From the NCBI GenBank assembly GCA_938040315.1, contig CALHQW010000004.1, positions 1-32,699 of the forward strand: a stretch of 32,699 nucleotides of DNA, read 5' to 3'. Of this stretch, positions 2,296-32,185 are shown piece by piece. The stretch is from an uncultured bacterium (lineage in GTDB: Bacteria; Hydrothermota; Tepidihabitantia; Tepidihabitantales; DTDR01). The position numbers and the translations under genes are program-made. The notes under the pieces were generated by a model. It was not told the origin of the DNA, did no database searches, and worked only from the letters and a program-made list of their open reading frames with translations. How positions within the stretch are numbered: the stretch's first letter is position 1; each line of letters starts with the position of its first letter.

Positions 2296-2324
2296 TTGAA
2301 AATTTTTATTGTTCTTTTTAAAAT
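2296..2324 (+). promoter_or_regulatory. Promoter of tilS operon, leaderless type
   Basis: TTGAAA (2296-2301), a 17-nt spacer, and TAAAAT (2319-2324). The -10 ends 7 nt before the ATG at 2332, so transcription should start at or next to the start codon. The -35 hexamer coincides exactly with an alternative in-frame TTG at 2296, which therefore is unlikely to be translated. Confidence 0.65.
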
Positions 2325-2331
2325 ATTTTTG

Positions 2332-3711
2332 ATGGGTAGTGTTAAAATTTTAAAAAAAGTAGAAGAAACAATTAAAAAATATAAATTATTAGAAAAAGGA
2401 GATAAAGTTTTGATTGGTTTTTCGGGCGGAAAAGATTCGGTTTGTCTTCTTTATATTTTTTATTTATTAAAAGAAAAATATGATTTAAATTTAATTGCTT
2501 TTCATCTTAATCATCTATTGAGAGGTAAAGAGGCAAAAAGAGATGAAGAATTTTGTAAAGAATTTTGCAAAAAGTTAAATGTTCCACTAATCATTAAAAG
2601 AAGGGATGTTAAAAAATATAGCAAAAAATATAATTTAAGTATAGAAGAGGCTGGTCATAAATTAAGATATCATTATTATGAAAAAATTGCTCAAAAAGAG
2701 AAATGTCAAAGAATTGCTCTTGCTCATACTGCTTCGGATAATGAAGAGACAATTTTGCTCTCTTTAATCTCTGGTCAATCTTTGGGAAGAATTGCAGGAA
2801 TCTTACCCAAAAGAGAAAGGATTATTAGACCGTTGATTGATTTGACAAGTGAAGAAGTTTTGCTATTTTTAAAAGAGAATAATCTACCTTATGTAGAAGA
2901 TTCAACTAATAAAAATTTAAAAATTCCCAGAAATTATTTAAGAAATATTGTAATTCCCAATCTTAAAAAAATAAATTCTAATTTAGAAAAGACTTTAAGA
3001 CAAGTTAGCGAAATTCTATTTAAAGAAAATGAATATTTAGAAAGGGAAACAGATAGGGTTTATAATTTATTAATAAAAAAAGAGGATGATGATATTTTGA
3101 TTTCTAAGAAAGAATTTGTGATTTTGCCTTTAGCAATAAAAAGAAGAATTTTTAAAAGGCTCTTCCCTAATGCCAGTTTTTATCAAATAGAAGAAATGGT
3201 TAATTTGGTTAATAAACAAGTTGGTAAAAAAATAAATTTAAAAGAAAATATTATTTATAATGAGTATAATTATTTAAGAATACGCAAAGAAAATAAAAAA
3301 AAGACAATTAATGAAGTTTTTAAAATAAAATTAAACAAAATAAATAATTTCCCAAAGATTAATTTAAAATTGACTTGTGAAGTTATGGATATTGAAAAAA
3401 TTAAGAAATTTAATTATAATAATTGTGAATATTTTGATAAAAATGATATTAAATTGCCTTTATTTATCCGATTTAGAAAAAAAGGAGATATTATTAAAAT
3501 TAAAAAGGGAAGAAAAAAAGTTAAAAAACTTTTTATTGATATGAAAATTCCCAGGATAGTAAGAGATAATCTTCCTATACTATGTGACCAAAAAGGTATT
3601 CTTTGGATTTTTGGTGTTTATCGTGCTTATCGAGGTTTGATTAAAAAAAATACCAAAAAAGTTGTAAGAATAAAAATTTTAAAATGGCAAAATCCAATTT
3701 GCCAAAATTAA
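2332..3711 (+). CDS. tilS: tRNA(Ile)-lysidine synthase TilS
   Basis: This ATP-dependent ligase attaches lysine to C34 of the CAU-anticodon tRNA-Ile, so that it reads AUA; it is essential in an AT-rich genome. From ATG 2332 it has 459 residues. The PP-loop 'SGGKDS' lies at 31-36, the usual distance from the start. '[11 protein letters not shown]', '[13 protein letters not shown]' and 'NYLRN' follow, then a C-terminal domain ending in '[11 protein letters not shown]' and 'GVYRAYRG'. An in-frame TTG at 2296 would add 12 hydrophobic residues, but it falls on the -35 box. The stop lies inside ftsH (28-nt overlap). It is the first gene of tilS-ftsH-dapA-dapB; tilS-ftsH adjacency is common in bacteria and supports the call. 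Confidence 0.95.
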
Positions 3712-5513
3712 TAACTGGACAAATTCTTGTTTGGTTATTTATTATTATCGTTGTCTGGTTGGCATTTAGTCTTTTTAATATTAAATCATCTAAAGCAAAT
3801 ATTGATTATTCTCGTTTTTTAATAGAAGCGGAGAAGGGAAATATTGAAAGTGTAATTTTGGTTGAAAAAGAGGTTAACGGAACTTTTCGGGAACCAATTT
3901 TCGTGGAAGGGGAAAGAAAAAAATATAAAGAGTTCAAAACTTATATACCCTTCCCTGACCCTCAGATAATTGAAAAATTAGTAAAAAATAAAACAGAGAT
4001 AATTGCCAAACCACCTTCTAATATTTCTAATATTATTTTAGGAATTTTGCCTTGGTTTTTCTTTATCTTTTTGATGATGCTTTTTTTTAGAAGGGTTACT
4101 TCCGGTCAGGACCGAGCATTTACTTTTGGTAAAAGTCGGGCAAAAATTTTAAATGAAAGTAAACCAAAAGTAACCTTTGAAGATGTTGCAGGTGTTGATG
4201 AAGCAAAGGAAGAATTGAAAGAAATCATTGAATTTCTTAAAGCGCCAGCCAAATTTCAAAAATTAGGTGGAAGAATTCCTAAAGGAGTGTTGTTAGTTGG
4301 GCCACCGGGAACTGGAAAGACTTTATTAGCAAAAGCGGTCGCTGGGGAAGCAGGAGTTCCTTTCCTTTCTATTTCTGGCTCGGAGTTTGTGGAAATGTTT
4401 GTGGGTGTAGGTGCTGCAAGGGTAAGAGACTTGTTTGAACAAGCAAAAAAAAACGCTCCGTGTATTGTTTTTATTGATGAAATTGATGCTGTCGGTAGAC
4501 AAAGAGGTGCAGGAATTGGTGGTGGTCATGATGAGCGAGAGCAGACTTTGAATCAATTACTTGCTGAAATGGATGGTTTTGATACTACTGAAGGAATAAT
4601 TATAATGGCTGCTACTAATCGGCCAGATATTTTAGACCCAGCCCTTTTAAGACCAGGCAGATTTGATAGACAAATTGTTGTTGATCGACCAGATATAAAA
4701 GGAAGAGAAGAAATTTTAAAAGTTCACACAAAAAAAGTTCCATTAGATAAAGATGTGGATTTAAAAGTTCTGGCAAGAAGCACTCCTGGTTTTTCAGGCG
4801 CCGATTTAGCAAATATGGTAAACGAAGCAGCCTTACTTGCTGCCCGAAGAGGAAGAGAAAAAGTAACTATGCAGGATTTTGAAGATGCCAAAGATAAAGT
4901 ATTGATGGGAGTGGAAAGAAGAAGTTTGTTAATCTCTGAACAAGAAAAGAAATGGATTGCTTATCACGAAGCTGGTCATGCTTTGGTTTCTAAATTAATT
5001 CCCGGAACTGATCCGATTCATAAAGTAACAATTATTCCACGAGGAAGAGCTTTAGGAATAACCCAACAATTACCAATAGATGAGCGAAGAATTTATTCCA
5101 AAACCTATTGCGTAAATCAGTTATCGGTTATGCTTGGTGGCAGAGCAGCTGAAGAAACTGTTTTTGGCGATATTTCCACCGGTTCTCGTGATGATATTGA
5201 TAAGGCAACTCAATTAGCAAGAATGATGGTTTGTGAATGGGGAATGAGTGAAAGATTAGGACCTTTGACATTAGGAAAAAGAGATGAAGAAATATTTTTA
5301 GGTAGAGAATTTGGTCTTCATAGAAATATTTCCGAAGAAACCGCTAAAATTATAGATGAAGAAATTAAAAATTTTATAGAAAAAGCTCATAGAAAGGCAT
5401 TAGAAATTATTAAAAATAATGAACAATTACTTCATAAAATTGCTAATAAATTATTAGAAAAAGAAATTCTTACTGGTGATGAAATAGATGAAATCATAAA
5501 AAATTCTGAATAA
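3684..5513 (+). CDS. ftsH: ATP-dependent zinc metalloprotease FtsH
   Basis: Membrane-anchored AAA+ protease that degrades damaged or unneeded membrane and cytosolic proteins as a hexamer. Its 609 residues are close to the family norm. There are two transmembrane helices (about 12-31 and 116-136) flanking a small periplasmic domain. The AAA domain has Walker A GPPGTGKT at 206-213, Walker B IVFIDEID at 261-268, the pore motif FVG at 239-241 and an arginine-finger region 'RPGRFDRQ' near 323. The zinc site HEAGH is at 428-432, with a third ligand region 'STGSRDDID' further on. All catalytic residues are present. The ATG overlaps the end of tilS by 28 nt with no clear Shine-Dalgarno, which suggests translational coupling. 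Confidence 0.97.
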
Positions 5514-5525
5514 TTAAAATATTAA

Positions 5526-6401
5526 ATGTTTACTGGTTCAATAGTTGCTTTAATTACACCTTTTAAAAAGGGTAAATTAGATATTGAAGGCTTTAAAAAG
5601 AATCTTCAATTTCAATTAGAAAATAATACCGATGGTTTTCTGCCTTGCGGTACAACAGGTGAAACGCCTTCTTTAGAGGAAGAGGAATGGGTAGAAGTAG
5701 TAAAAACAACTATTGAATTTGTTAATAAAAGAAAACCAGTAATTGTTGGTACTGGAACAAATAATACCAAAAAGACAATAAAGTATACTATATTGGCTGA
5801 AAAATTTGGTGCTGATGCTTGTTTGGTTGTAGCGCCTTATTATAACAAACCAACCCAAGAAGGTTTATATCAACATTTTAAAGAAGTTAGTCAGAGTGTA
5901 AAAATACCGATAATTCTCTATAATATTCCTTCCCGAACCGGCGTAAATATCTTACCAAAAACATTAGAAAGACTTGTTTCTGATTGTAAAAATATTATTG
6001 GTATAAAAGAAGCATCAGGAAATTTAGACCAGGTTTCAGAAATTATTTTAAGATTAGGAAAGGATTTTATTGTTCTTTCTGGCGATGATTCTTTGACTTT
6101 ACCAATTCTCTCTCTTGGTGGTAAGGGAGTGATTTCGGTTTTAGCCAATATTCTGCCAAAAGAAATTCATTTATTGGTTAAAAATTTTTTAAATGGTAAT
6201 ATCTTAGAAGCTCAAAAAATTCATTTGAAGTATTTTAAATTGATGAAGGCATTATTTATTGAAACAAATCCGATACCAATAAAAACCGCAATGAATTTAA
6301 TGGGATTACCGGCCGGAGAATTAAGATTGCCATTGACACCTATGGCCAAAGAAAATTTAGAATATTTAAAATTAGTGATGAGGGAGTTAACGCTAATATG
6401 A
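5526..6401 (+). CDS. dapA: 4-hydroxy-tetrahydrodipicolinate synthase DapA
   Basis: Condenses pyruvate with aspartate semialdehyde, the first committed step to diaminopimelate and lysine. Its 291 residues form the expected TIM barrel. 'CGTTGETPSL' binds pyruvate (41-50), the proton-relay Tyr132 lies in 'YNIPSRTGV', and the Schiff-base Lys161 in 'GIKEASGN'. The start lies 12 nt after ftsH without a clear ribosome binding site. The stop codon overlaps the dapB start (ATGA). Its place in an operon with dapB makes the DapA role more likely than the related aldolases (NanA, KDG aldolase). Confidence 0.95.
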   Translation: MFTGSIVALITPFKKGKLDIEGFKKNLQFQLENNTDGFLPCGTTGETPSLEEEEWVEVVKTTIEFVNKRKPVIVGTGTNNTKKTIKYTILAEKFGADACLVVAPYYNKPTQEGLYQHFKEVSQSVKIPIILYNIPSRTGVNILPKTLERLVSDCKNIIGIKEASGNLDQVSEIILRLGKDFIVLSGDDSLTLPILSLGGKGVISVLANILPKEIHLLVKNFLNGNILEAQKIHLKYFKLMKALFIETNPIPIKTAMNLMGLPAGELRLPLTPMAKENLEYLKLVMRELTLI

Positions 6402-7111: not shown

Positions 7112-7152
7112 AAAAATAAGAATTTTCTTTATATTTTTTATATATTAATTTT

Positions 7153-8517: not shown

Positions 8518-8535
8518 AAATTACAATCCTTTTTA

Positions 8536-9258: not shown

Positions 9259-9274
9259 ATAATTTATTAAAATC

Positions 9275-10558
9275 TTAGTCTTTTTTGTGATATTTTCCTT
9301 CAAAACCTCTTTTTGTTGGGAAATAATATTTTTTCCCTTTTAATAAAGGTGGCAAATAATCTTGTTCAATTTCTCCTTCTGGATAATTATGGGGATATTT
9401 ATAGTTTTTACCATAACCTAATTTTGTCATTAATTGGGTTACTGGATTTCTGAGATGTAGAGGAACCGGTTCATTATAGGTATTTAAAGCATCCTCCTTT
9501 GCTTTATTATAGGCTAAATATACTGCGTTACTTTTCGGTGCTAATGCAAGATAAATAGTTGCTTGGGCTAATGCTAATGAACATTCAGGCATGCCCACAA
9601 ATTCACAAGCTTCTTTTGCGGAAGTTGCCACTACTAAAGCCATAGGATCAGCATTACCAATATCTTCGGAAGCCAAGATAATTAATCTTCTCGCAATATA
9701 TAAAGGGTCACAGCCGGCTTCTAACATCCGAGCAAGCCAATATAAGCTAGCATCAGGAGAAGACCCTCTCACTGATTTTATAAATGCCGAAATAAGATTA
9801 TAAAATTCTTCACCCTTTTTATCAAAATGTAAAACTTTCCTTTCTAAAAGTTTATCAATCTCTTCAATTTTAATAACTCTTTTTCCATTTTTATCTTTTT
9901 CGCTACTTAAAGTAGCCAGTTCTAAGATATTCAAAGCCACCCTCGCATCACCATTAGAAAGATGAGCAATGTACTCTAAAATCTCTTCACTAATCTCTAA
10001 ATTATAATCTTTTAAACCATCGGGATGATTAATTGCCCTTTTTAAAATCTCCTTTATTTCATTTATGCTTAATGGATGTAAAATATAAACTTTTAGACGA
10101 GAAAGTAATGGTGGAATAATTTCAAAAGAAGGATTTTCTGTCGTTGCACAAATTAAAAAGATTTTTCCTCTCTCTACATAAGGCAATAGAGCATCTTGTT
10201 GGGCTTTATTAAAATGGTGGATTTCGTCGATAAAAATTATTGTGTGCCTTTTGTAATATTTTAAATCTCTTTCGGCTAATTTTATTGCCTTTTTCATTTC
10301 GTTAATTGTTGTATCAGCCGCACTAAAAGAAATAAAATTGGTATTACTTATCTCAGCGATAATCTTTGCTAAAGTTGTTTTTCCGGTTCCTGGGGGTCCC
10401 CAAAAAATTAAAGAGTGCAATTTTCCTTTTGAAATTAACTTTCTAAAAGGAGTATCAGGAGAGAGTAAATGTTTCTGACCAACCATTTCATCCAGATTTT
10501 TAGGTCTTACTCTCTCGGCTAAGGGTGGCAAAAAATTACCTTTCTCAAAAAGTTCCAT
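9275..10558 (-). CDS. rarA: Replication-associated recombination protein A (RarA/MgsA), AAA+ ATPase
   Basis: DNA-dependent ATPase related to clamp loaders that acts at stalled replication forks. Its 427 residues have the standard order: 'LAERVRPKNLDEMVGQ', Walker A GPPGTGKT at 54-61, Walker B 'IFIDEIHHFNKAQQDALLP', sensor 1 'CATTENPSFE', then 'LLSRLKVY'. The C-terminal tetramerisation part contains 'SVRGSSPDASLYWLARMLEAG' and 'SEDIGNADPMAL', and it ends with 'YPHNYPEGEIEQDYLP'. The gene has its own consensus promoter overlapping the fusA stop and seems to be leaderless. It converges on the ttcA-like gene with only 16 nt between stops and no terminator hairpin. Confidence 0.96.
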   Translation of the reverse strand: MELFEKGNFLPPLAERVRPKNLDEMVGQKHLLSPDTPFRKLISKGKLHSLIFWGPPGTGKTTLAKIIAEISNTNFISFSAADTTINEMKKAIKLAERDLKYYKRHTIIFIDEIHHFNKAQQDALLPYVERGKIFLICATTENPSFEIIPPLLSRLKVYILHPLSINEIKEILKRAINHPDGLKDYNLEISEEILEYIAHLSNGDARVALNILELATLSSEKDKNGKRVIKIEEIDKLLERKVLHFDKKGEEFYNLISAFIKSVRGSSPDASLYWLARMLEAGCDPLYIARRLIILASEDIGNADPMALVVATSAKEACEFVGMPECSLALAQATIYLALAPKSNAVYLAYNKAKEDALNTYNEPVPLHLRNPVTQLMTKLGYGKNYKYPHNYPEGEIEQDYLPPLLKGKKYYFPTKRGFEGKYHKKD

Positions 10559-10564
10559 TAAAAA

Positions 10565-10593
10565 ATTATAAAACTTAAAAATTAAAATGTCAA
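10565..10593 (-). promoter_or_regulatory. Promoter of rarA, leaderless type
   Basis: Read on the minus strand: TTGACA (10593-10588), 17 nt, TATAAT (10570-10565), a perfect consensus match. The -10 ends 6 nt before the rarA ATG (10558). The -35 box overlaps the fusA stop codon at 10590-10592. Confidence 0.75.
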
Positions 10594-12665
10594 TATTTTA
10601 ATTTAATTTCTAAATAAGGAAAGATTTTTTTAATCTCTTCGTCGGGCAAGATTTCATAATGGGAGAAATGCATCGAATAGGTTGCCCGACCAGAAGATAA
10701 AGAACGAATAGTAGTTGCATAACCAAAGGTTTCCTTTAAAGGCACTATTCCAGATAATACTCGATAATCTTTTATTACTTCTATTTTTAAAATTTTTCCT
10801 CTTCGGGCTGTTAAATCATTAATAATTACCCCTACATATTCTTCTGGTGTTAAGATTTCAATATTCATTATTGGTTCCAATATTTTTGGTTGAGCATTTT
10901 TATAGGCTTCATTAAAAGCATTATTAGCAGCAATCTGAAAGGCAAAATCGGAAGGATTATCTTTATAATAACTGCCATCAAGAATTTCAATGAGAATATT
11001 ATTAATTGGGTAACCGATTAATAAACCAGCATTAATAATTCCAAGAAGAGTTTCTTCGATTTTTGGATAAAAAATTTCTGGAATTTTATCCTTATCAACA
11101 TTAAAAATTACATTAACTCCTCTTTCTTTTGGTGAGATTTTAATAGTTATTTCCGCTTGGTGTAATTTATTATCAATTATTTTAGAAAATTTACCAAAAC
11201 CAATACTTTCTTTGGTTATTGTTTCTCGATAGGAAACTTGTGGTTTACCGATATGACAGGGAATTTTATAGTCTCTTTGGATTCTATCGGCAATAATTTC
11301 TAAATGTAATTCGCCCATTCCCATAATTATTCGCTGACCGGTTTCTTCATCATATTTAACTTTAAAAGTGGGGTCCTCAATAGTGAGTAGTTCTAAACTT
11401 TCTTGTAATTTTTTCTCATCTTTCTTTGTTTTTGGTTCAATTGTGGCAAATATTACTGGTTCAGGAAGGGTTAAGGGTTCAAAGGCAATTGGTGCGTGCA
11501 GATCACAAAGGGTATATCCGGTCTTCACATTTTTTAATCCAACAATTGCTCCAATCTCACCGGCTTTTAATTCTTCTACCTCTTGTTGTTTATTGGCATG
11601 CATTAATAATATTTTATTTACTCTTATTTTCTCCATCGTGGGCACAACTAAAATTTGTTTGCCCACTTGAATCTTTCCTGAATAGATGCGGAAATAAGAA
11701 AGTAAGCCACGATTAAAATCATTTTGGATTTTAAAAATAAGCGCAGAAAAAGGTTGAGCGATATTTGCTTTTCTTTCTTCTAAATTATTATTCTTTGGGT
11801 GAAAGCCAACTACCGGTGGCAAATCAATTGGTGAAGGTAGATAATCAATAATGCTATCTAAAAGAGGTTGAATTCCTTTATTTTTTAAAGCACTACCACA
11901 TAAAACGGGATAAAATTTTAAATTTAATGTTCCTTTTCTTATTACTCCTTTTATCAAATCAATTGGTATATCTTCTCCTTTAAGATATTTCTCTAAAATT
12001 TCCTCATCTTCTTCTGACAAAATTTCTATCATTTTTTCTCTCATTGATTTTGCTTTCTCTTTATAATCTTCGGGTATTGGCAATTTATCATATTTTGCTC
12101 CCAAGGTTTCTTCATACCAAATATATAAAACTTGTTCAATTAAATCAATTACTCCTTTAAAATTTTCTTCTTCTCCATAAGGAATTTGGATTGGTAAAGG
12201 TTTAAGAGATAATCTCTCTTCCATCATTTTTATTACCCTTTTAAAATCAGAACCAATCCTATCAAGTTTATTAACAAAGGCAATCCTGGGAACCCGATAT
12301 TTATCTGCTTGATGCCAAACAGTTTCGGTTTGTGATTCTACGCCACCAACACCACAAAAAACAATTATTGCTCCATCTAAGACTTTCAGACATCTCTCTA
12401 CCTCAATTGTGAAATCAACATGACCAGGAGTATCAATTATATTAATCTGATAACCTTTCCAAAGACAAGTAGTGGCAGCGGAAGTGATCGTGATTCCTCT
12501 TTCTTTTTCTTGAATCATCCAGTCCATTGTCGCGGTACCTTCGTCTACCTCGCCCATACGATAAATTTTTCCAGTATAATACAAAATCCTTTCAGTTGTG
12601 GTAGTCTTTCCTGCATCAATATGAGCAGCAATACCAATATTTCTTATCCTCTTTATATATTCCAT
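10590..12665 (-). CDS. fusA: Elongation factor G (divergent domain IV)
   Basis: Translational GTPase for ribosome translocation and/or recycling. Its 691 residues are full length. G1 AHIDAGKT at 14-21, 'RGITI' at 56-60, G3 DTPGH at 78-82 and G4 NKLD at 132-135 are all intact, and the G' insert is present. Domain III has '[10 protein letters not shown]' (448-457). In domain IV the usual GGRGQYGHV signature after 'YRETI' is absent; residues 488-507 read quite differently. The C-terminus '[13 protein letters not shown]' is normal. It is not next to rpsL, rpsG or tuf, so it may be a second, specialised EF-G of the kind found in lineages with split translocation and recycling factors. It is divergent from hutU. 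Confidence 0.9.
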
Positions 12666-12674
12666 ATTTTATCA

Positions 12675-12702
12675 ATTTTAATCAAATCAAGTAATTAGTC
12701 AA
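12675..12702 (-). promoter_or_regulatory. Possible fusA promoter
   Basis: Minus strand: TTGACT (12702-12697), 16 nt, TAAAAT (12680-12675), with 9 nt to the ATG at 12665. I see no Shine-Dalgarno sequence in between. Same geometry as the proposed mazG promoter. Confidence 0.5.
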
Positions 12703-12732
12703 TGTGATTAGGATTATATAATTTAAAAGACC

Positions 12733-12808: not shown

Positions 12809-12839
12809 CCCTCCCCTATCAATTTTAATTATAATATTA

Positions 12840-12867
12840 TTGACAAATATTTATATTTAGGTATTAT
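12840..12867 (+). promoter_or_regulatory. Promoter of hutU, leaderless type
   Basis: TTGACA (12840-12845), 16-nt spacer, TATTAT (12862-12867). The -10 ends 6 nt before the ATG at 12874, and no Shine-Dalgarno fits in that space. Confidence 0.7.
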
Positions 12868-12873
12868 TAAATT

Positions 12874-14571
12874 ATGGAAATGATTGAGACATTGAAAGAG
12901 AAAAAGATTAAAGCCCCGCAAGGAAAAAGTTTATTTTGTAAGGGGTGGCATCAAGAGGCAGCCTTAAGAATGCTTTGTAACAATTTAGATTCTGAGGTAG
13001 CAGAAAAACCAGAGGAATTGATTGTTTATGGCGGTTGCGGTAAAGCAGCAAGAAACTGGGAATGTTTTTATGCCATTGTTGAATCTCTAAAAAATTTAGA
13101 AAACGATGAAACTCTTTTAATCCAATCAGGAAAACCAGTAGGAATATTTAAAACCTTTCCTTATGCACCAAGGGTTTTAATTGCCAATTCTTTATTAGTT
13201 CCTGCTTGGGCAACCTGGGATTATTTTAGAAAATTGGAAGCCTTAGGATTAATTATGTATGGTCAGATGACCGCCGGTAGTTGGATTTATATTGGCACTC
13301 AAGGGATTATCCAAGGAACTTATGAAACCTTTGCGAGTTGTGCTAAAAGACATTTTGGTGGTTCTTTAAGAGGGAAATGGGTATTGACTGCAGGAATGGG
13401 CGGAATGTCTGGTGCTCAACCATTAGCAGTTACTATGAACGAAGGAGTAATTTTGGATGTGGAAGTTGATCCTAAAAAGATTGAAAGAAGAATAAAACAA
13501 GGTTTCTGTGATTTGATGGTTTTTGATTTAGATGAAGCATTAAGATTAGTAGATGAGGCAGTGAAAAAGAAGATTCCTCGTTCTATTGGTTTAGTTGGTA
13601 ATGCTAGCGATATTCATCCAGAATTGGTAAAAAGAGGAATTATTCCTGATGTTTTAACTGACCAGACTTCTGCTCACGATGAATTAAATGGTTATGTGCC
13701 AGGAAGAATGGGTTTAGAAGAAGCATTGGAATTAAGAAGAAAAAATCCTCAAGAATATATTAAAAGAAGTTATGAATCAATGGCAAGACAAATGGAAGCA
13801 ATGTTAGAAATGCAAAAGAAAGGAGCAATAGCCTTTGATTACGGAAATAATATTCGTGGTCAAGCATATAAAGCTGGGGTAAAAGATGCCTTTAATATTC
13901 CTGGTTTTGTTTTAGAATATATTAGACCACTTTTTTGTGAAGGAAGAGGCCCTTTTAGATGGGTTGCTTTATCCGGAAATAAAGAAGACATTTATATTAC
14001 TGATAAACTGGTTTTAGAATTATTTAAAGATAATGAAATATTAGTCCGCTGGATTAAATTAGCAGAAGAGAAAATACCTTTCCAAGGTTTACCAGCAAGG
14101 ATTTGTTGGCTTGGTTATGGAGAAAGAGCAAAATTTGGATTGGAGATTAATAAGTTAGTAAGGGATGGTAAAATTGAAGCACCTATTGTTATTGGTCGAG
14201 ATCATTTAGATACCGGTTCGGTTGCCTCACCAAATAGAGAGACCGAAAAGATGAAGGATGGTTCTGATGCAATTGCTGACTGGCCAATACTTAATGCTTT
14301 ATTAAACGCCGTTTCTGGTGCTTCCTGGGTTTCTGTACATCATGGTGGTGGAGTGGGTATTGGTTATTCAATCCATGCTGGACAAGTTATTGTTGCTGAT
14401 GGTACTAAAGAAATGGATGAAAGATTAGAAAGAGTCTTAACTAATGACCCAGGAATAGGCATTGTTCGCCATGCCGATGCTGGTTACGAAAAAGCCATTG
14501 AAGTTGCTCAAAGACATAATATAAAAATTCCAATGCTAAATTTTCAAAAAGAAAAGAAAGAGAGAAAGTAG
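12874..14571 (+). CDS. hutU: Urocanate hydratase
   Basis: Adds water to urocanate to give imidazolonepropionate, the second step of histidine breakdown, using tightly bound NAD+ as electrophile. The full-length 565 residues contain '[11 protein letters not shown]', '[16 protein letters not shown]', the NAD-binding '[12 protein letters not shown]', '[12 protein letters not shown]', the active-site region '[11 protein letters not shown]' with the conserved Cys, '[13 protein letters not shown]' and '[10 protein letters not shown]'. No hutH, hutI or hutG is in the window, so the rest of the pathway must lie elsewhere. It is monocistronic, and its last 36 nt overlap the 3' end of the ICMT-like gene on the other strand. 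Confidence 0.97.
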
Positions 14572-15054: not shown

Positions 15055-15775
15055 CCATCTCTTTCAAACTTACTTCTTTTAGTTCCTTTCCTTTTTTCTC
15101 AAATTCTTTTTCTAATTTTTTAAATCTTTTAATAAATTTTTGGCAGGCTTTCTTTAAACTCTCTTCAGCAGAAAGATTTAAATGGCGAGAAAAATTAACC
15201 AAAGCAAATAAAATATCGCCTATTTCATTTTCAATCTCTTTTTTCTCTTTTTTCTTTATTGCCTCTTTTAATTCTTTTATCTCTTCTTCCACTTTATTCA
15301 AAATATCCTCTTTTTTTTCCCAATCAAAACCAACTCTTTTTACCCGATCTTGGATTAATTCAGCATAATGAAGAGCGGGCAAAATCTTTGGGATACCACT
15401 AACAACGGAAGATTTTTTTCCTTTTTTTTCTTTCTTTTTTAAATCCTCCCAATTTCTCAATACTTCTTTTACATCTTTTACTCTTTTATTTTTGAAAACG
15501 TGGGGATGGCGATAGATGATTTTTTTCTTTAGGCGGGTTAAAATTTTAAAAAAATTACTTTTTTTCTTCTCTTTTAAAAGTTGCGAAGTAAAAATAATCA
15601 AAAGTAAAAGATCTCCCAATTCCTCTTCAATTCCTTTAAAATTTTTCTTATTAATCTTATCAACTAACTCATAAACTTCATTAATAAATAATGATTTAAT
15701 TTTATTTAATGTTTGTTTTCTATCCCAAGGACACTTTTTTCTTAATGTGGCAACAATTTTTAATAATTCTTTCAT
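15020..15775 (-). CDS. mazG: Nucleoside triphosphate pyrophosphohydrolase MazG
   Basis: Hydrolyses (d)NTPs to monophosphates and pyrophosphate, a housecleaning and stringent-response-linked enzyme. Its 251 residues hold two MazG repeats: N-terminal 'KCPWDRKQT', 'LFINEVYELVD' and 'EEELGDLLLLIIF', and C-terminal 'GFDWEKKEDIL', 'KVEEEIKELKEAI' and 'ENEIGDILFALVN'. Both repeats keep the ExxE...ExxD metal-binding pattern. The linker is unusually lysine-rich ('KKKEKKGKKS'). It heads a two-gene operon with the ICMT-like gene and diverges from the TM2-glyA-eno operon. Confidence 0.95.
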   Translation of the reverse strand: MKELLKIVATLRKKCPWDRKQTLNKIKSLFINEVYELVDKINKKNFKGIEEELGDLLLLIIFTSQLLKEKKKSNFFKILTRLKKKIIYRHPHVFKNKRVKDVKEVLRNWEDLKKKEKKGKKSSVVSGIPKILPALHYAELIQDRVKRVGFDWEKKEDILNKVEEEIKELKEAIKKKEKKEIENEIGDILFALVNFSRHLNLSAEESLKKACQKFIKRFKKLEKEFEKKGKELKEVSLKEMDEVWEKIKKNN

Positions 15776-15784
15776 AGTTTTAGA

Positions 15785-15812
15785 ATTTTAATAAATCTTT
15801 TAAAAAATTCAA
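15785..15812 (-). promoter_or_regulatory. Possible mazG promoter
   Basis: Minus strand: TTGAAT (15812-15807), 16 nt, TAAAAT (15790-15785), then 9 nt to the ATG at 15775. No Shine-Dalgarno is visible. Weaker match than the others. Confidence 0.4.
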
Positions 15813-15817
15813 TTAAA

Positions 15818-15846
15818 TTGACAAAAATATAAAATTTCAGTATATT
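15818..15846 (+). promoter_or_regulatory. Promoter of TM2-glyA-eno operon (leadered)
   Basis: TTGACA (15818-15823), 17 nt, TATATT (15841-15846). The start codon is at 15866 and is preceded by a strong AAGGAGG (15855-15861), so the mRNA has a leader of about 12-14 nt, just enough for the ribosome site. This contrasts with the leaderless units nearby. Confidence 0.75.
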
Positions 15847-15865
15847 AAAGAAAAAAGGAGGAATA

Positions 15866-16264
15866 ATGTATTGCCGAAATTGTGGAAAAGAGATAAGTGA
15901 TGTGGCTGAGTTTTGTATTCATTGTGGAGCAAAACCTTTAAAAGGAAGGAAGTATTGTCAAAATTGTGGAAATGAAGTTAACCCAGAAGCCGAGATTTGT
16001 GTAAAATGTGGTGTGAGACTTTTAATTGAGAAAGGAAAAAAAGAAAAGGAAGAAGGGCAAAAGGATTGGCTAGTTGCCTTATTACTTTCTATTTTTCTTG
16101 GTGGATTAGGAATTGACCGATTCTATCTGGGCTATATTGGTTTAGGAATTTTAAAATTATTAACTATGGGAGGTTTTGGAATTTGGTGGCTTATTGATTT
16201 GATTTTGATTGCCACTAATCGGATGAAGGATGCGGAAGGAAGGGAATTATATAAAAATATTTAA
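15866..16264 (+). CDS. Double zinc-ribbon TM2-domain membrane protein
   Basis: This 132-aa protein has two N-terminal zinc ribbons with CxxC pairs (C3/C6 with C17/C20, and C31/C34 with C45/C48), then a Lys/Glu-rich linker (53-66) and a TM2 domain. The TM2 part has two transmembrane helices around '[12 protein letters not shown]' and '[11 protein letters not shown]', the family hallmark. TM2 proteins are small membrane proteins of unknown molecular function. The zinc ribbons presumably face the cytosol and may bind protein or nucleic acid (inferred). A strong ribosome site precedes the start. glyA follows after 11 nt. Confidence 0.85.
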
Positions 16265-21681: not shown

Positions 21682-21682
21682 T

Positions 21683-22438: not shown

Positions 22439-23627
22439 TGTTCATTATTGCTTCATAAACTTTAATTGCCTCTTTTGTTTCTTTTACATCATGAACTCTT
22501 AAAATATTTGCACCTTTTAAGGCTAATAAAACCGCACAACCAATTGAACCAAAAAGTCTTTTTTCTGGTTCATCATAATTAAGGATCTTACCGATAAAAC
22601 TTTTTCTGGAATGCCCAACTAAAATTGGTAAATTTAAAGATTTAAACTCTTCTAATCTTCTAATAATTTCTAAATTATGTTCCAAAAGTTTTCCAAAACC
22701 AATTCCTGGATCGATAATAATCCTTTCTCTTTTTATCCCTTTATTAATGGCATAATCTACTCTTTCTTTTAGATAATCATAAATCTCTTTTATCACATCT
22801 TTATAATGAACCCTTTTTTGCATTGTTTTGGGTTTTCCTTTTATGTGCATGATTACACAATAGGCGTTGTAAAAAGCAATCACTTCAGCCATTTTTTTAT
22901 CAAATTTTAAGCCGGAAATATCGTTAACAATTTCGCAACCTTCACTTAAACAAATCCTGGCTACTTCACTTTTATAAGTGTCAATAGATATTGGCACTTT
23001 TATTTTTTTCTTCAATTCTTTAAGAACCGGTAATACTCTCTTTAACTCTTCTTTTAAAGGCACCGGTTTGCTCCCCGGCCTTGTTGATTCACCACCAATA
23101 TCAATAATATCAGCACCTTCTTCCATCATTTTTATTGCATGATCAACCGCTTCTTTTATATCTTTAAATTTTCCACCATCATAAAAAGAATCAGGAGTTA
23201 AATTTAATATTCCCATTATCAAAATCCTGTTTTTTAAATTATAACTTCTATCTTTAAATTTAAGAACAAAACTATCTTTTTCTTTATAACTCTTTAAAAA
23301 TTTTTCTAAATTTTCTTTTACACTCTTTAAAAACTCTGGTTGATAATTAAGTTTTTCACAAATTTTTTCTAAACCTCTTAGGGTGGTAATTAAAATGGCA
23401 TCAGCCTTCTTTTTTCTGCCCGAAATAATTTTTTTATGAATAGCACAATCACTGTCACAAACCAAGGCAACCTGTTTTAAAATATTACAAATTGCTTGGT
23501 TCAAAGATTCTAATTTTAAAGCAATCACTTTACTTTTCTTTAAAAAGATTGGTATCGCTTCTGGATCAACCCCCACATTTAAAAGTTCCTTTTTTAAATC
23601 TCCATTATTTAAAGATAAAATTCGCAT
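22422..23627 (-). CDS. folP: Dihydropteroate synthase with N-terminal extension
   Basis: Joins p-aminobenzoate to the pterin pyrophosphate in folate synthesis. The protein is 401 aa, against about 280 for classic FolP. The catalytic barrel starts near residue 133 with 'IMGILNLTPDSFYDGG', then 'DIIDIGGESTRPGS', 'PISIDTYKS', 'IVNDISG', 'IIDPGIGFGK' and 'VGHSRKSFIG'. The first ~130 residues ('VGVDPEAIPIF', 'KVIALKLESLNQAICNILKQ', 'DAILITTLRGLEKI') form an extra domain also found in FolP of several anaerobes and thermophiles; its role is unknown. It is the first gene of folP-cdaA-DUF2723 and appears leaderless. Confidence 0.95.
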   Translation of the reverse strand: MRILSLNNGDLKKELLNVGVDPEAIPIFLKKSKVIALKLESLNQAICNILKQVALVCDSDCAIHKKIISGRKKKADAILITTLRGLEKICEKLNYQPEFLKSVKENLEKFLKSYKEKDSFVLKFKDRSYNLKNRILIMGILNLTPDSFYDGGKFKDIKEAVDHAIKMMEEGADIIDIGGESTRPGSKPVPLKEELKRVLPVLKELKKKIKVPISIDTYKSEVARICLSEGCEIVNDISGLKFDKKMAEVIAFYNAYCVIMHIKGKPKTMQKRVHYKDVIKEIYDYLKERVDYAINKGIKRERIIIDPGIGFGKLLEHNLEIIRRLEEFKSLNLPILVGHSRKSFIGKILNYDEPEKRLFGSIGCAVLLALKGANILRVHDVKETKEAIKVYEAIMNNAHNF

Positions 23628-23632
23628 AGTTT

Positions 23633-23661
23633 ATTATAATTTAATAATTATTAAATGTCAA
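23633..23661 (-). promoter_or_regulatory. Promoter of folP operon, leaderless type
   Basis: Minus strand: TTGACA (23661-23656), 17 nt, TATAAT (23638-23633), a perfect consensus. The -10 ends 5 nt before the ATG (23627). It is back to back with the glutaredoxin promoter, with 16 bp between the two -35 boxes. Confidence 0.75.
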
Positions 23662-23677
23662 TTCATCAAAACATTTT

Positions 23678-23705
23678 TTGATTTTTTTATTCATTTTTGT
23701 ATAAT
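23678..23705 (+). promoter_or_regulatory. Promoter of glutaredoxin-FDR operon, leaderless type
   Basis: TTGATT (23678-23683), 16 nt, TATAAT (23700-23705). The -10 ends 5 nt before the ATG at 23711, with no room for a Shine-Dalgarno. Confidence 0.65.
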
Positions 23706-23710
23706 AACCT

Positions 23711-23977
23711 ATGGGTGAGAAGAATAAAAAAATTGTTTTGTATGCTTTAAGCACATGTGGATGGTGTCGAAAAACAAAAAATCTTTTAAACAGATTAAAT
23801 ATCGAATATCAATGTTTTGAAGTTGATTTGCTGGAAGGAAAAGAAAGAGAGAAGATTCTTAAGGAAATGAAAAGATATAATCCCAATTTATCTTTTCCTA
23901 CTTTAGTGATTAATGATGAATTAGTAATCATTGGATATGATGAAGAGAAAATAAAAAAGGAATTTAAAAATGATTGA
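23711..23977 (+). CDS. Glutaredoxin-like protein
   Basis: An 88-residue thioredoxin-fold redox protein. The active site is C16-G-W-C19 after a first beta strand ('[13 protein letters not shown]'). The cis-proline loop is 'SFPTLVI', followed by 'IIGYDEEKI', as in NrdH/Grx-type proteins. It overlaps the next gene, a ferredoxin:disulfide reductase, by 8 nt, so that enzyme is the obvious electron donor in place of glutathione or an NADPH reductase. Targets could include ribonucleotide reductase or general protein disulfides; neither is shown here. Confidence 0.9.
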
Positions 23978-24458: not shown

Positions 24459-24473
24459 TAAAATAATACTCCG

Positions 24474-24494
24474 AAAATAAAAAAATTTTATTTT
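24474..24494. terminator. AT-only palindrome after FDR gene, possible terminator
   Basis: AAAATAAAA-AAA-TTTTATTTT, a perfect 9-bp stem made only of A-T pairs, 16 nt after the FDR stop. It ends in a T-rich arm but has no G-C clamp, so it would be a weak intrinsic terminator at best. Confidence 0.25.
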
Positions 24495-24548
24495 GCTTGT
24501 TTCTTTAGTAATCCTATCTTAATAAATTTGTTTATAATCTTCTGGCCA

Positions 24549-24566
24549 AAAATCTTTAAAGATTTT
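24549..24566. repeat. 18-bp perfect palindrome upstream of trpS
   Basis: AAAATCTTT/AAAGATTTT, a perfect dyad 63 bp upstream of the trpS -35 box. It could be an operator or a chance AT palindrome. It lies in a 206-nt gene-free stretch (24459-24664) that otherwise shows only the AT hairpin and the trpS promoter. Confidence 0.3.
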
Positions 24567-24628
24567 AAAAAGAATAGGAAAAGAAGAAGAAACCTTGTTT
24601 AAAAAATGATCAAATTATTTATTTAAAA

Positions 24629-24657
24629 TTGACAATTTTTTAATTCTAAATTATAAT
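24629..24657 (+). promoter_or_regulatory. Promoter of trpS-ispD-dxr-rseP operon, leaderless type
   Basis: TTGACA (24629-24634), 17 nt, TATAAT (24652-24657), a perfect consensus. The -10 ends 7 nt before the ATG at 24665. Confidence 0.8.
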
Positions 24658-24664
24658 ATTAATT

Positions 24665-25666
24665 ATGAAAAAAAGAATTTTGACTGGTGACCGACCTACT
24701 GGACCTCTTCATCTAGGACATTATGTGGGTACGATTATTAACCGAGTGAAATTACAGAAGGAATATGAAACTTTTATTATTATTGCCGATGTTCAAGCAT
24801 TAACAACAAATTTCGAACATCCCGAGTTGTTAAAAAATGATGTCTTACAAGTGGCTATTGATAATTTAGCCTGTGGGGTTGATCCAGAGATTTCTTCTAT
24901 TTTTATCCAATCAATGATACCAGAAATTGCTGAATTGACAGTTTATTACTCAATGCTGGTGTCGATTAATTTGCTCTCCCATAACCCAACGATTAAAACC
25001 GAAGCAAAACAATATAATTTTGAAAAAAGTATGCCTTATGGATTTTTAGGATATCCAATTAGTCAAGCAGCTGATATCACTTTTTGTAAAGCAAACTTAG
25101 TTCCCGTGGGCGAGGATCAATTACCCCACATTGAGTTAACAAGGAAAATTGTAAGAAAATTTAATCAATTATATGGCGAAGTTCTTGTTGAACCTGAGCC
25201 TCTTCTATCTCACACTCCTCGCTTACCGGGCTTAGACGGTGGAACAAAGATGAGCAAAAGTTTAGGTAACTGTATTTATTTAGGTGATTCTCAAGAAGAA
25301 GTAAGCAAAAAAATTAAAAAAGCAGTAACTGATCCAAAAAGAATTCATCCTACCGATTTAGGACATCCTGAGGTATGTACAGTTTTTACTTATCATAAAG
25401 CTTTTAATCAAGAAAATTATTTAGAAATTGAAAAAAGTTGTCGGAATGGTAAGATTGGCTGTGTTGCTTGTAAAGAAAAGTTAATTGAAATTCTTAATCA
25501 ATTTTTAGAACCCATTCGGGAAAAAAGAAGATATTATGAAGAAAGAAAGAAAGAAGTAATAGAAATTCTTTATGAAGGAACAAAAAAAGCGAAAAGGATT
25601 GCCGAAGAGACTTTGAAAGAGGTTCGAGCAGCAATTAAGATTGATTATTTTAATTATTTTAAATGA
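24665..25666 (+). CDS. trpS: Tryptophanyl-tRNA synthetase, Fe-S type
   Basis: Class I aminoacyl-tRNA synthetase charging tRNA-Trp. Its 333 residues carry the HIGH-like motif 'PTGPLHLGH' (11-19) and KMSKS (195-199). The C-terminal part has C238-x20-C259-x6-C266-x2-C269. This closely matches the 4Fe-4S motif of Thermotoga maritima TrpRS (C-x22-C-x6-C-x2-C), where the cluster lies near the anticodon-binding region. The start follows a consensus promoter with no leader. It overlaps ispD by 4 nt and heads a five-gene unit. Confidence 0.96.
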   Translation: MKKRILTGDRPTGPLHLGHYVGTIINRVKLQKEYETFIIIADVQALTTNFEHPELLKNDVLQVAIDNLACGVDPEISSIFIQSMIPEIAELTVYYSMLVSINLLSHNPTIKTEAKQYNFEKSMPYGFLGYPISQAADITFCKANLVPVGEDQLPHIELTRKIVRKFNQLYGEVLVEPEPLLSHTPRLPGLDGGTKMSKSLGNCIYLGDSQEEVSKKIKKAVTDPKRIHPTDLGHPEVCTVFTYHKAFNQENYLEIEKSCRNGKIGCVACKEKLIEILNQFLEPIREKRRYYEERKKEVIEILYEGTKKAKRIAEETLKEVRAAIKIDYFNYFK

Positions 25667-27485: not shown

Positions 27486-27486
27486 A

Positions 27487-28731: not shown

Positions 28732-29945
28732 AGAAGTTCCTTTTTCTTTATTCACCTTTTTCAAACCTTTCTTACGAAGAGAATTTTCCACCAAAAGGGG
28801 CTAATTATTTTTTAAAAGAAAAAGAAGAAATACTCCAAATAAAAAATTTTTTAGATTTTGATTATCAAGATTTAAGAATAAGAAAGTTAGAATTAAAGGA
28901 TTATGAATATATTTTTTTATATTGTGATTTTTTAAGTGATTTTCCGACAATTAATTCTCTTGGAGAAAATATCCTAAATAATAAAAAGAAACTTTTTCTT
29001 TTTGGTCCTTTAATAACCCATTATTTCTATTATCAACCTTCTTTATTAGAAAATTTAAAAGAAAAAGATTTATCATTGATAATTGGTTTCTTACCAAATA
29101 TTCTTTCTAAAATTCTTACGGATATCAATAATCAGGAGATTAAAAAAATTTATCAAGCTCCTCTTCTTCCTAATTACTTTCCTATGGATTCCCAAATCTC
29201 TTTAATTATTGGTTGTTATTGTTTAGAAGAACTTAAACCCTTTTGTAAAAACTTTCTTTATTTTAAAAATAATATAAAAATCCGCGAGATAAAAGAGGTA
29301 ATTAAAGAAGTCAGCAATAAAAAAAGAAAGTTAATAGAAATTGATGATGAAGATATTACTAGGAATTTTATTTATTATTCTGATTTTTTCTCTTCAGTTT
29401 GGCGATTTCGAAAACATTGGATTATAAAAACTTCTCAAAATATTTTTGAGAATCCAAAATTTATCCGACTTTTAGCCAAGGCGGGGGTGAAAGTTATTTA
29501 TTTAAATGAGAGTTGGTTAAATCTCGATAATTTAATAGAAAAGGAAAATAACAAATTAATAAAAGAAAAAAGAAAGGAAGTAAAATCCCTTCAAAAAGAA
29601 AAAATTCTTGTGGGAGCAAAACTTTCGTATATCTTAAAAGAAAGGAAAATTAATTTTAAAAAAATTTTTAATATTTTAAGAAAAATTGACTTTGATTTTT
29701 TAGAATTGAGGTTTTTTCTCTTAGAAAATAACCAACTTTATTTAACCTATCCTACTTATCAACCTTTTCTATCAGAAACCTCACCAGTTGTTTTAAAAAG
29801 AGAATTCTATTCTTTGCGAAATATTATTTATCGTTTATTAAAGAGACCACGACGGGTAGGATTTTATAATACTTTTTTTTATTCTTTACCTTTAAATCTG
29901 GCTTATCGCCAGAATTTTTTAGAAGGAATTCCTTTTCCTCCTTAA
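28728..29945 (+). CDS. Degenerate B12-binding/radical SAM-like protein (probably inactive)
   Basis: A 405-aa protein that follows the layout of B12-dependent radical SAM enzymes of the DUF4070-like type. It has an N-terminal cobalamin-like half ('DYEYIFLYCDFLSDFP', 'LFGPLITH' where GGPHAT is usual, 'LSLIIGFLP' where GEGE is usual, 'IKKIYQAP'). A radical-SAM half follows ('LIEIDDEDITRN', 'NPKFIRLLAKAGVKVIYLNES') with a tail 'EFYSLRNIIYRLL'. Where the CxxxCxxC cluster motif belongs there is only 'GCYCLEELKPFCKN' (C163, C165, C173), with the wrong spacing. No cobalamin DxHxxG is seen. I infer a pseudoenzyme or strongly altered member. It overlaps rseP by 4 nt and abuts the convergent NifU-domain gene with no gap. 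Confidence 0.6.
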   Translation: MKKFLFLYSPFSNLSYEENFPPKGANYFLKEKEEILQIKNFLDFDYQDLRIRKLELKDYEYIFLYCDFLSDFPTINSLGENILNNKKKLFLFGPLITHYFYYQPSLLENLKEKDLSLIIGFLPNILSKILTDINNQEIKKIYQAPLLPNYFPMDSQISLIIGCYCLEELKPFCKNFLYFKNNIKIREIKEVIKEVSNKKRKLIEIDDEDITRNFIYYSDFFSSVWRFRKHWIIKTSQNIFENPKFIRLLAKAGVKVIYLNESWLNLDNLIEKENNKLIKEKRKEVKSLQKEKILVGAKLSYILKERKINFKKIFNILRKIDFDFLELRFFLLENNQLYLTYPTYQPFLSETSPVVLKREFYSLRNIIYRLLKRPRRVGFYNTFFYSLPLNLAYRQNFLEGIPFPP

Positions 29946-30185
29946 TTACACAATATTTTCTACTTTTTTTACTTCGGAAAATTTTTCTTTTAATCTTTGT
30001 TCAATCCCTAAGGCAAGAGTAAAAGTAGCAAAAGGACAACCAGCACAACTACCAAAAAGTTTTACTTTCACAATCCCATCGTTAGTTATTTCTACAATTT
30101 CACCGTCACCACCATCAGCGATTAATCCTGGTCTTATTTCTTTCTCAAAAAATTCTTTAATATTTTTCTTTATTTCTTCGTTCAT
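29946..30185 (-). CDS. NifU-like (Nfu) Fe-S scaffold domain protein
   Basis: A 79-residue stand-alone NifU C-terminal domain that carries or delivers Fe-S clusters. It shows 'IRPGLIADGGDGEIVEI' and the ligand pair C47-x-x-C50 in 'GSCAGCPFAT', followed by the helix 'LALGIEQRLKE'. Nothing is missing for the family. It overlaps the DUF362 gene by 4 nt, and its stop touches the stop of the convergent radical-SAM-like gene. It could supply clusters to the many Fe-S proteins implied in this window (TtcA, TrpRS, FDR). Confidence 0.93.
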   Translation of the reverse strand: MNEEIKKNIKEFFEKEIRPGLIADGGDGEIVEITNDGIVKVKLFGSCAGCPFATFTLALGIEQRLKEKFSEVKKVENIV

Positions 30186-31270
30186 TTTAAATCCTCCTTT
30201 AAATATTTTTTAAAAAGTTTTCCCCATTCGCTTTCTAAAAATCTTTTTAAACGCATCTTGCCAATAAAAGGGTACCACAAAAAATCGTGATAAAAAGTTG
30301 AAGCAATTGGTGCCCAAATCCATAAAGGTGAATGAAGGGCAATTTTTTTTAGAAATCTTAAATACCCTTTTCTCAATTGTTGGTCACCAAAAATAACAAA
30401 ACTTTTTTTGGTTTTAAATTTAAAATTTAAAGAAGAAATATCTTCGCCATAAATTTTTATTTTTTCTAAATCAGCACAACCTAATCCTAAATCGTGAGCA
30501 ATTTTTAAATAATTAATTTTTAAAGGATCAAATCCCATTATTTTTGCTGCGACGGCATCTAAGGCAACAGAATCAAAAGAAGCCAAAATTAGATTGCCAA
30601 TATAAGGAAGCATCGTTCGCGGACCAGCACCATTGCCACAAACAGTACCATCCATTACCGCAAAAATAACCGGATGGATTTCCTTTTGCATTATAAGTAA
30701 ATCAACCAATACTTCGTGAATAAACTCATGACCATAATGTCTAACCTCTTTCAATAATCCACCAAAGGCATTTTTAATAGCACCGGTCGTAACCGAATGG
30801 CCATGGGTTTTTAAAGTTGGTAAATGAAGGATATTTTTGTTAATAAAGATTTTAGGAATATAAATACCTTCTTTAAAAATTTTATCAAGTTTCAACAAGG
30901 GAGTTTTAAAATCGTATCTTATCCATTCCTGCTCGGGTAAAGGATAAAATTTTAAATTATATTTTTTTAGAACATTAAGCCAGCCTTGATTTTTTGCTCC
31001 TTTCTTCACATCAGTAACAACTGTCTTATTTTCACAAGGATAAATTTTTTCTTTATCATAACCATCTTTTAATAAAGTCCTTACTACCCCTTCTAATTGC
31101 CAGGGAGGAGAAGAAGAGGCAGGATAAAAAAGTGTCCAAGATAAATTCAATTTAATAATTATTTCTTTATCCTTTTTTAAAAATTCTTGGTAATTTGCTA
31201 AATGAAGTAATTTCTCATAATCTTCTAATATTTTGTTTGGATTGGTTTTAACAACAAAAACTTCACTCAT
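30182..31270 (-). CDS. DUF362 domain protein
   Basis: A 362-aa protein of the DUF362 family (unknown function, sometimes fused to ferredoxin domains). Family features seen: 'IIIKLNLSW' near the N-terminus, 'ILHLPTLKTHGHSVTTGAIKN' split over the central block, 'NAFGGL', 'VMDGTVCGNGAGPRT' and 'SFDSVALDAVAAKIMGFDP'. No CxxCxxC ferredoxin motif is present. The C-terminal ~70 residues are aromatic and basic ('SPLWIWAPIASTFYHDFLWYP') and might associate with the membrane. It is joined by 4-nt overlaps to the UbiA-family gene upstream and the Nfu gene downstream. Its position suggests a role linked to the prenyl product or Fe-S metabolism, but this is a guess. Confidence 0.85.
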   Translation of the reverse strand: MSEVFVVKTNPNKILEDYEKLLHLANYQEFLKKDKEIIIKLNLSWTLFYPASSSPPWQLEGVVRTLLKDGYDKEKIYPCENKTVVTDVKKGAKNQGWLNVLKKYNLKFYPLPEQEWIRYDFKTPLLKLDKIFKEGIYIPKIFINKNILHLPTLKTHGHSVTTGAIKNAFGGLLKEVRHYGHEFIHEVLVDLLIMQKEIHPVIFAVMDGTVCGNGAGPRTMLPYIGNLILASFDSVALDAVAAKIMGFDPLKINYLKIAHDLGLGCADLEKIKIYGEDISSLNFKFKTKKSFVIFGDQQLRKGYLRFLKKIALHSPLWIWAPIASTFYHDFLWYPFIGKMRLKRFLESEWGKLFKKYLKEDLK

Positions 31271-32148
31271 CTTATCTTATAAATAATAAGTATCACACAA
31301 ATAAACCACAAAATAACATTTATTAATAAGGGAATATCTTTAATAAATGCCTTATCAGGATTTTCCCAAAATTGGCGATGATAAATTAAATAAAGATAGC
31401 GAAAGATTCCATAAATCACAAAGGGTAATGTGAAAATCAAATTTTTGGTTTTAAATTTGTTTATTGTTTCCGGAGCGACGGTATAAATACTGTAAGCAAT
31501 TAAAGAAGAAGCAGTGGCAACATTAATCATTTGGTCAATAAAATTATGAGAGTAATCTTTTAAAACTTTTCTATGAAAAATCGCCTTTTCATTAAGCATT
31601 TCAATTTCCGTTTTTCTTTTTGTGAGGGCTAAAAATAAAGCAAGTAAAATAGTACAAATAAAAAGCCATTCAGAAAGAGAAACATTAATCAGAACCGTTC
31701 CTGCCCAGGCTCTTAAAAGAAAACCAAAAGAAACAATAATCACATCCAAAATTACAATGTCTTTAAGATAAAGAGTATAAAAAATTGATAAGAGAATATA
31801 AAATATTAATACCAAAAAGAAAGAGGATGAGAGAAAATAAGAAAAAATTAATGAAAAAATAAGCAAGAGAATTGCTAAAATAAAAGCAACCTCTTTTTTT
31901 ATTAAACCATTAGCAATTGGTCTTTTTCTCTTTTCAGGATGGAGTTTATCTCTTTCGTAATCTTTGACATCATTCAATACATATAAAGCACCAGAAGCAA
32001 AGGAAAAAAGAAAGAAAGCGAAAACTGTTTTTAAAAATAAAGAAATATTAAATAACTTTTGAGCAAACACTAAACCAGCAAAAATTAAAATATTTTTAAG
32101 CCATTGATGCGGTCTTAAAGAAATGAAAAAATAATATATACTTTTCAT
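31267..32148 (-). CDS. UbiA-family prenyltransferase, decaprenyl-phosphate phosphoribosyltransferase-like
   Basis: An integral membrane enzyme of 293 aa with about eight helices. The first Asp-rich motif is N59-D-V-K-D63-Y-E-R-D67, followed by 'HPEKRKRPIANG'. The second motif region is 'YLKDIVILDVIIVSFGFLLRAWAG'. 'SLRPHQWLKN' at the N-terminus and these blocks are characteristic of the branch that includes mycobacterial DPPR synthase (Rv3806c type), which links phosphoribose to polyprenyl phosphate for arabinose or other decaprenyl-sugar donors. Other UbiA reactions remain possible. It is first in the UbiA-DUF362-Nfu operon and appears leaderless. Confidence 0.85.
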   Translation of the reverse strand: MKSIYYFFISLRPHQWLKNILIFAGLVFAQKLFNISLFLKTVFAFFLFSFASGALYVLNDVKDYERDKLHPEKRKRPIANGLIKKEVAFILAILLLIFSLIFSYFLSSSFFLVLIFYILLSIFYTLYLKDIVILDVIIVSFGFLLRAWAGTVLINVSLSEWLFICTILLALFLALTKRKTEIEMLNEKAIFHRKVLKDYSHNFIDQMINVATASSLIAYSIYTVAPETINKFKTKNLIFTLPFVIYGIFRYLYLIYHRQFWENPDKAFIKDIPLLINVILWFICVILIIYKIR

Positions 32149-32156
32149 TTAAAATA

Positions 32157-32185
32157 ATTATACCTCTAAAATTATTTATTTTCAA
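32157..32185 (-). promoter_or_regulatory. Promoter of UbiA-DUF362-Nfu operon, leaderless type
   Basis: Minus strand: TTGAAA (32185-32180), 17 nt, TATAAT (32162-32157). The -10 ends 8 nt before the ATG at 32148. Confidence 0.7.

Follow-up and report, generated by a model that had tools for sequence, protein, structure and literature searches.

Leaderless genes are widespread in bacteria and exceed 20% in Actinobacteria and Deinococcus-Thermus, according to a survey of 953 bacterial RefSeq genomes of 2010 whose list of groups does not name the candidate division WOR-3 (Zheng et al., 2011; PMC3160421). The idea that leaderless initiation depends on operon position has already been stated, both for Sulfolobus and for bacteria (PMC3160421). 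In Deinococcus, a -10 element adjacent to the open reading frame (ORF) has been shown experimentally to be a promoter (Zhong et al., 2025; PMC12340547), and mycobacteria need no more than a 5'-terminal ATG or GTG to translate an mRNA (Shell et al., 2015; PMC4633059). The stretch of DNA analyzed here (the window; 32,699 nucleotides, nt) corresponds to the opening 32.7 kb of contig C4 in a 1.49-Mb, 98% complete genome of candidate division WOR-3. Its GC content is 30%, and the nearest named relative of its TrpS protein (93% identity) comes from the metagenome-assembled genome 'candidate division WOR-3 bacterium SKYB26'. Pfam agrees with the names given to the window's leading genes, and an Rfam scan of the window found no known structured RNAs. 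An earlier note on this DNA had proposed that most transcription units in the window open with a leaderless gene, the -10 box lying 5–9 nt before the start codon, and that Shine-Dalgarno (SD) sequences serve other genes. The promoter patterns described below indicate that, at such genes, a housekeeping sigma-70-type promoter very probably puts the mRNA start at the start codon and that this mode coexists with SD initiation. Leaderless genes have been described in other bacteria but apparently not in the WOR-3 phylum; literature searches pairing the term with WOR-3 or Stahlbacteria returned no paper, although reports may exist elsewhere.

Perfect promoters of the form TTGACA-N16-18-TATAAT occur 51 times in the genome against 3 reversed-pattern controls, and an ATG follows at 5–7 nt in 26 of the 51 and at 11–13 nt in 4. 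Among 39 perfect promoters inspected singly, 22 have an ORF that starts with ATG or GTG 5–8 nt further on, 9 precede a 24–47-nt leader with an SD sequence, and 8 are ambiguous. Gene-based statistics were drawn from 814 kb taken as stretches (55% of the genome; 595 called genes), with d denoting the number of nt from the end of the -10 to the start codon and with promoters scored out of 12 by their -35 and -10 matches (thresholds of at least 9, 10, and 11). Exact TATAAT before the first start codon (591 genes) was found 19, 15, 10, and 12 times at d = 5, 6, 7, and 8, respectively, and 0–4 times at other distances. The clearly first genes are the 104 divergent genes, whose upstream neighbor has the opposite orientation, and 46 of them (~44%) have a promoter scoring at least 9 at d = 5–9, against a mean of 2.1 and a maximum of 7 in Markov-1 shuffled upstream regions. 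At scores of at least 10 and at least 11 the counts are 35/104 (shuffles 0.34) and 17/104 (shuffles 0.03), and the other 5-nt distance bins upstream of these genes hold 0–8 promoters. The genome-wide distance plot proposed as a check, in which a missing peak was to count against leaderless starts, therefore has its peak at 5–9 nt, and the contention that chance was unlikely is borne out genome-wide by a peak with paired -35 elements that exceeds the shuffles. In sigma-70 promoters, the -10 usually ends 6 nt before the transcription start (+1); d = 5–8 would therefore place +1 on or within about two nt of the start codon. Leaderless genes that have perfect promoters and could be matched to a family are varied (TsaC, ThrS, RecJ, PhoU, a GreA-domain protein, a histidine kinase, methylmalonyl-CoA mutase, and others), and MetK, YebC, and a thiolase-like protein are among the leadered ones; no functional bias between leaderless and leadered first genes with perfect promoters was shown, the numbers being too small and several genes lacking a family.

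SD sequences are found in none of the 72 strong leaderless cases, and they accompany 22 of 40 promoters lying 15–45 nt upstream of the start. In the 814-kb sample, SD hexamers peak 3–7 nt before starts, and the 16S tail (GGATCACCTCCTTTTAC) is intact and keeps its anti-SD, so both initiation modes should operate. An intact anti-SD and SD-led genes thus stand beside leaderless genes in one genome, as is required of a mixed system. The start codons of the 72 strong leaderless cases are 63 ATG, 7 GTG, and 2 TTG, compared with 140, 12, and 12 in SD genes, a difference that points the expected way, although these numbers are small. Strong leaderless sites were found at 36 of the 104 divergent genes versus 3 of 302 genes lying no more than 25 nt behind a co-directional gene, which is the pattern predicted if the start is borne by the promoter. 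SD 4-mers precede 22–26% of first genes, 20% of overlapping internal genes, and 44% of internal genes behind a short positive gap (background, 4–12%). The suggestion that operon position separates two modes thus stands in its leaderless half, where the mode is limited to genes that have a promoter of their own, and does not stand in its SD half, where only the short-gap internal genes are clearly richer than first genes. The split is one-sided: a leaderless start implies an own promoter, whereas an SD sequence does not imply an internal gene. Of the Sulfolobus-type rule, by which first genes are leaderless and distal genes SD-led, only the leaderless half holds in the sampled genome. Many internal genes carry neither signal and are probably translated by translational coupling.

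Within the window, all nine promoters were re-derived from the sequence at the distances claimed for them. Three are perfect TTGACA-N17-TATAAT promoters, as had been noted, and belong to rarA (10556–10593, minus strand; -35 at 10588–10593, -10 at 10565–10570, ATG at 10558, d = 6), folP (23625–23661, minus strand; -35 at 23656–23661, -10 at 23633–23638, ATG at 23627, d = 5), and trpS (24629–24667, plus strand; -35 at 24629–24634, -10 at 24652–24657, ATG at 24665, d = 7). The leaderless promoter of hutU (12840–12876, plus strand) combines TTGACA (12840–12845), a spacer of 16, and TATTAT (12862–12867) with ATG at 12874 (d = 6); that of the glutaredoxin gene grx (23678–23713, plus strand) combines TTGATT (23678–23683), a spacer of 16, and TATAAT (23700–23705) with ATG at 23711 (d = 5); and that of the ubiA-like gene (32146–32185, minus strand) combines TTGAAA (32180–32185), a spacer of 17, and TATAAT (32157–32162) with ATG at 32148 (d = 8). 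The divergent 83-nt region between folP and the glutaredoxin gene (23627–23711) carries two opposed leaderless promoters, each with d = 5. At tilS (2296–2334, plus strand; TTGAAA 2296–2301, spacer 17, TAAAAT 2319–2324), the distance of 7 is right with ATG 2332 as the start, but coordinate 2296 belongs to the -35 and is not the start, a longer ORF beginning there. The fusA (12663–12702, minus strand; TTGACT 12697–12702, spacer 16, TAAAAT 12675–12680, ATG 12665) and mazG promoters (15773–15812, minus strand; TTGAAT 15807–15812, spacer 16, TAAAAT 15785–15790, ATG 15775), both at d = 9, had been presented as weaker cases and are weak sites on recomputation. Eight of the nine genes have an in-frame stop 3–42 nt upstream and no other upstream start before that stop, so that the start assignment is secure; tilS is the exception, with two TTGs as alternative upstream starts. 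The promoter and distance of rarA are right, but rarA is not a clear unit start, as it lies 31 nt 3' of fusA on the same strand; the fusA TGA stop sits within the rarA -35, and the promoter is therefore intra-operon. Two leadered units provide the contrast and do carry the SD sequences ascribed to them: the TM2-domain gene (15818–15868, plus strand; TTGACA 15818–15823, spacer 17, TATATT 15841–15846, AAGGAGG, ATG 15866) has a 19-nt leader, and the 3'-terminal unit, called kbl in the earlier note (32530–32591, plus strand; TTGACT 32530–32535, spacer 17, TATAAT 32553–32558, GGAGG 32580–32584, ATG 32589), has one of 30 nt.

The trpS promoter is conserved across the class. Of 30 WOR-3 loci compared, 26, in families f1–f5 and f10 and with proteins 42–93% identical to the window TrpS, have a TTGA-type -35 (at least 4/6), a 16–18-nt spacer, and a TATAAT-like -10 ending 5–8 nt before the start; two of the loci (L071 and L234) have identical trpS upstream regions and are probably one genome, leaving 29 independent genomes. 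The spacer sequence has diverged while the geometry of -35, -10, and start has been kept, and the geometry also occurs in f5, where the genome sample has 53% GC. The exceptions are L236 (f2, d = 3), L254 (f8), L255 (f7), and L260 (f10, where no box resembling TATAAT reached the threshold). Among 78 outgroup trpS genes (Firmicutes, Fermentibacteria, and a few others), the leaderless architecture was found in none, and about two thirds have an SD sequence. Similarly, rarA has the same footprint in most f1–f5 genomes with a usable start, and it is not clear in f9 and f10. The conserved geometry at the two genes is not readily accounted for by base composition and, together with the 5–9-nt peak and the missing SD sequences, strongly supports the leaderless transcription put forward for the window.

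In 147 WOR-3 genomes, with family sums tallied by hand, an ATG lies at 5–7 nt after 2441 of 10474 perfect promoters versus 673 at 11–13 nt. The share in the window's own family (67/148) compares with 30/498 (6%) in 23 outgroup genomes (Fisher p about 1e-26), and the 5–7-nt excess is seen in most families that have enough promoters. No such excess was found in f37 (80/950 versus 64 at 11–13 nt) or in f13, f16, f19, and f20. Gene-anchored profiles, built from 14–128 genes per family with longest-ORF starts, themselves poor in higher-GC genomes, agree in direction with the promoter survey (f6 and f10 peak at 5–7 nt; f5 is SD-dominated). Promoters of f37 (G142–G146; L202–L231) have 17-nt spacers almost exclusively (16-nt share 1%) and extended TGnTATAAT boxes in 55% of cases, whereas the 16-nt share is 83–97% in the leaderless-rich families f6–f10. 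Some perfect promoters of f37 apparently precede tRNA genes. Across 31 families, treated as unrelated and thus uncorrected for shared ancestry, 16-nt spacer share and leaderless share are correlated (Spearman 0.71), although within the window's own genome leaderless and SD promoters cannot be told apart by spacer length. A tentative reading, to which we give about one chance in a few, is that leaderless initiation is an old, gene-specific WOR-3 trait (class-wide at trpS, order-wide at rarA) that some families lost or never acquired and whose frequency is coupled to promoter geometry, with 16-nt spacers in rich families and 17-nt spacers plus TGnTATAAT in f37. At L022, L060, and one promoter of L063, a perfect promoter with an ATG at 5–8 nt is also followed by an SD start 28–35 nt downstream, possibly reflecting short leader peptides or dual starts.

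Under the mechanism proposed for leaderless initiation, RNA polymerase with the housekeeping sigma-70-type factor would read a canonical -35/-10 pair with a 16–17-nt spacer, the -10 ending 5–8 nt before the start, and transcription would begin at, or within ~2 nt of, the A or G of ATG or GTG. The resulting mRNA would have no SD sequence, and its 5'-terminal start codon would be bound directly, by 70S or IF2-dependent initiation, while ordinary leaders with AAGGAGG, in a genome whose anti-SD is intact, serve further first genes and some of the operon-internal ones. By analogy with mycobacteria and Deinococcus, a 5'-terminal ATG or GTG may suffice for translation in WOR-3 and the ORF-adjacent -10 may act as a promoter there. 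Several points weigh against this account: the positions of the 5' ends and the mode of translation are deductions from sequence; in the commonest exact-TATAAT class (d = 5), the A of ATG is one nt closer to the -10 than the usual +1; at d = 8, one or two leader nt could remain; and the gene starts come from a simple gene finder on the 55% sample, making the proportions approximate.

One alternative is that these mRNAs have very short leaders of 1–5 nt and are translated by a non-SD route, such as S1 or A/U-rich binding. The sites at d = 7–9 would permit leaders of 1–3 nt, and the 5' ends are placed by promoter geometry alone, but the mode at d = 5–6 leaves no leader, and the start codons are almost all ATG or GTG, as expected for 5'-terminal starts (PMC4633059), small as the numbers are; we consider this alternative improbable. 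A second possibility, that the promoters are real and translation in fact starts further downstream, after SD leaders, would suit the few perfect promoters that have both a nearby ATG and a later SD-preceded start (those of L022, L060, and L063). It is nevertheless very improbable, as the conserved N-terminal nucleotide-binding segment of TrpS (ILTGDRPTGPLHLGH) begins about 4–5 codons past the ATG, the next in-frame trpS starts fall inside or beyond that segment, the peak is seen at first starts without any start optimization, and leaderless and SD signals are nearly exclusive. Least probable of all is chance, by which TATAAT-like hexamers would simply be frequent before starts in 30% GC DNA, with added selection for starts that are A/T-rich and unstructured. 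Hexamers loosely like a -10 do abound, 12% of mono-shuffled upstream regions passing the loosest criterion, but the position-specific peak with a paired -35 beats Markov shuffles about 20-fold to over 100-fold, the trpS architecture is kept in a family of about 53% GC, and the AT-rich f37 (36% GC sample) has plentiful perfect promoters and no 5–7-nt excess.

Promoter-placed, leaderless starts in WOR-3 would add a deep, uncultured phylum to the leaderless-rich bacteria, represented so far chiefly by Actinobacteria and Deinococcus-Thermus (PMC3160421). The contrast within the phylum is the most interesting point, since long-conserved leaderless genes and a family without the trait offer a natural comparison for the gain and loss of leaderless initiation. 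In practice, joint annotation of promoters and start codons is feasible in WOR-3 genomes, and gene finders that expect SD sequences may misplace their starts. Two other features of the window were noticed by eye: a 79-amino-acid ORF (29946–30185, minus strand) that resembles the NifU C-terminal domain and overlaps the end of a DUF362-like gene, and a gene (34–861, plus strand) with a C-terminus that looks like a type IX secretion sorting domain.

The WOR-3 genes resemble the TA-led genes of the bacterial survey, in which a -10-like signal about 10 bp before the start replaces the SD sequence alongside SD-led genes, only promoter-proximal genes are leaderless, and low-GC genomes have an informative TAtAAT; unlike in that survey (PMC3160421), the -35 in the window's genome is also near-perfect, the spacer is 16–17 nt, and about 44% of clearly first genes are involved. 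Two-mode initiation in Sulfolobus solfataricus, whose single and promoter-proximal genes are leaderless (cited in PMC3160421), is similar, but it uses archaeal promoter machinery, and in WOR-3 some first genes are leaderless and others SD-led, and many internal genes have no SD sequence. As in mycobacteria, leadered genes coexist with leaderless ones; the leaderless starts of mycobacteria are ATG or GTG, toward which the small WOR-3 numbers tend. The mycobacterial case is backed by RNA-seq, ribosome profiling, and reporters, and the WOR-3 case comes from sequence only (Shell et al., 2015; PMC4633059). A further likeness is to Deinococcus-Thermus, where a -10 about 6–7 bp before the ORF is found at about 30% of genes beside a ribosome-binding-site motif (Zhong et al., 2025; PMC12340547). 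That element is TANNNT, mostly TACACT in D. radiodurans (PMC12340547), whereas the WOR-3 promoters, known from genomic DNA alone, pair TATAAT with a canonical TTGACA in a genome of 30% GC.

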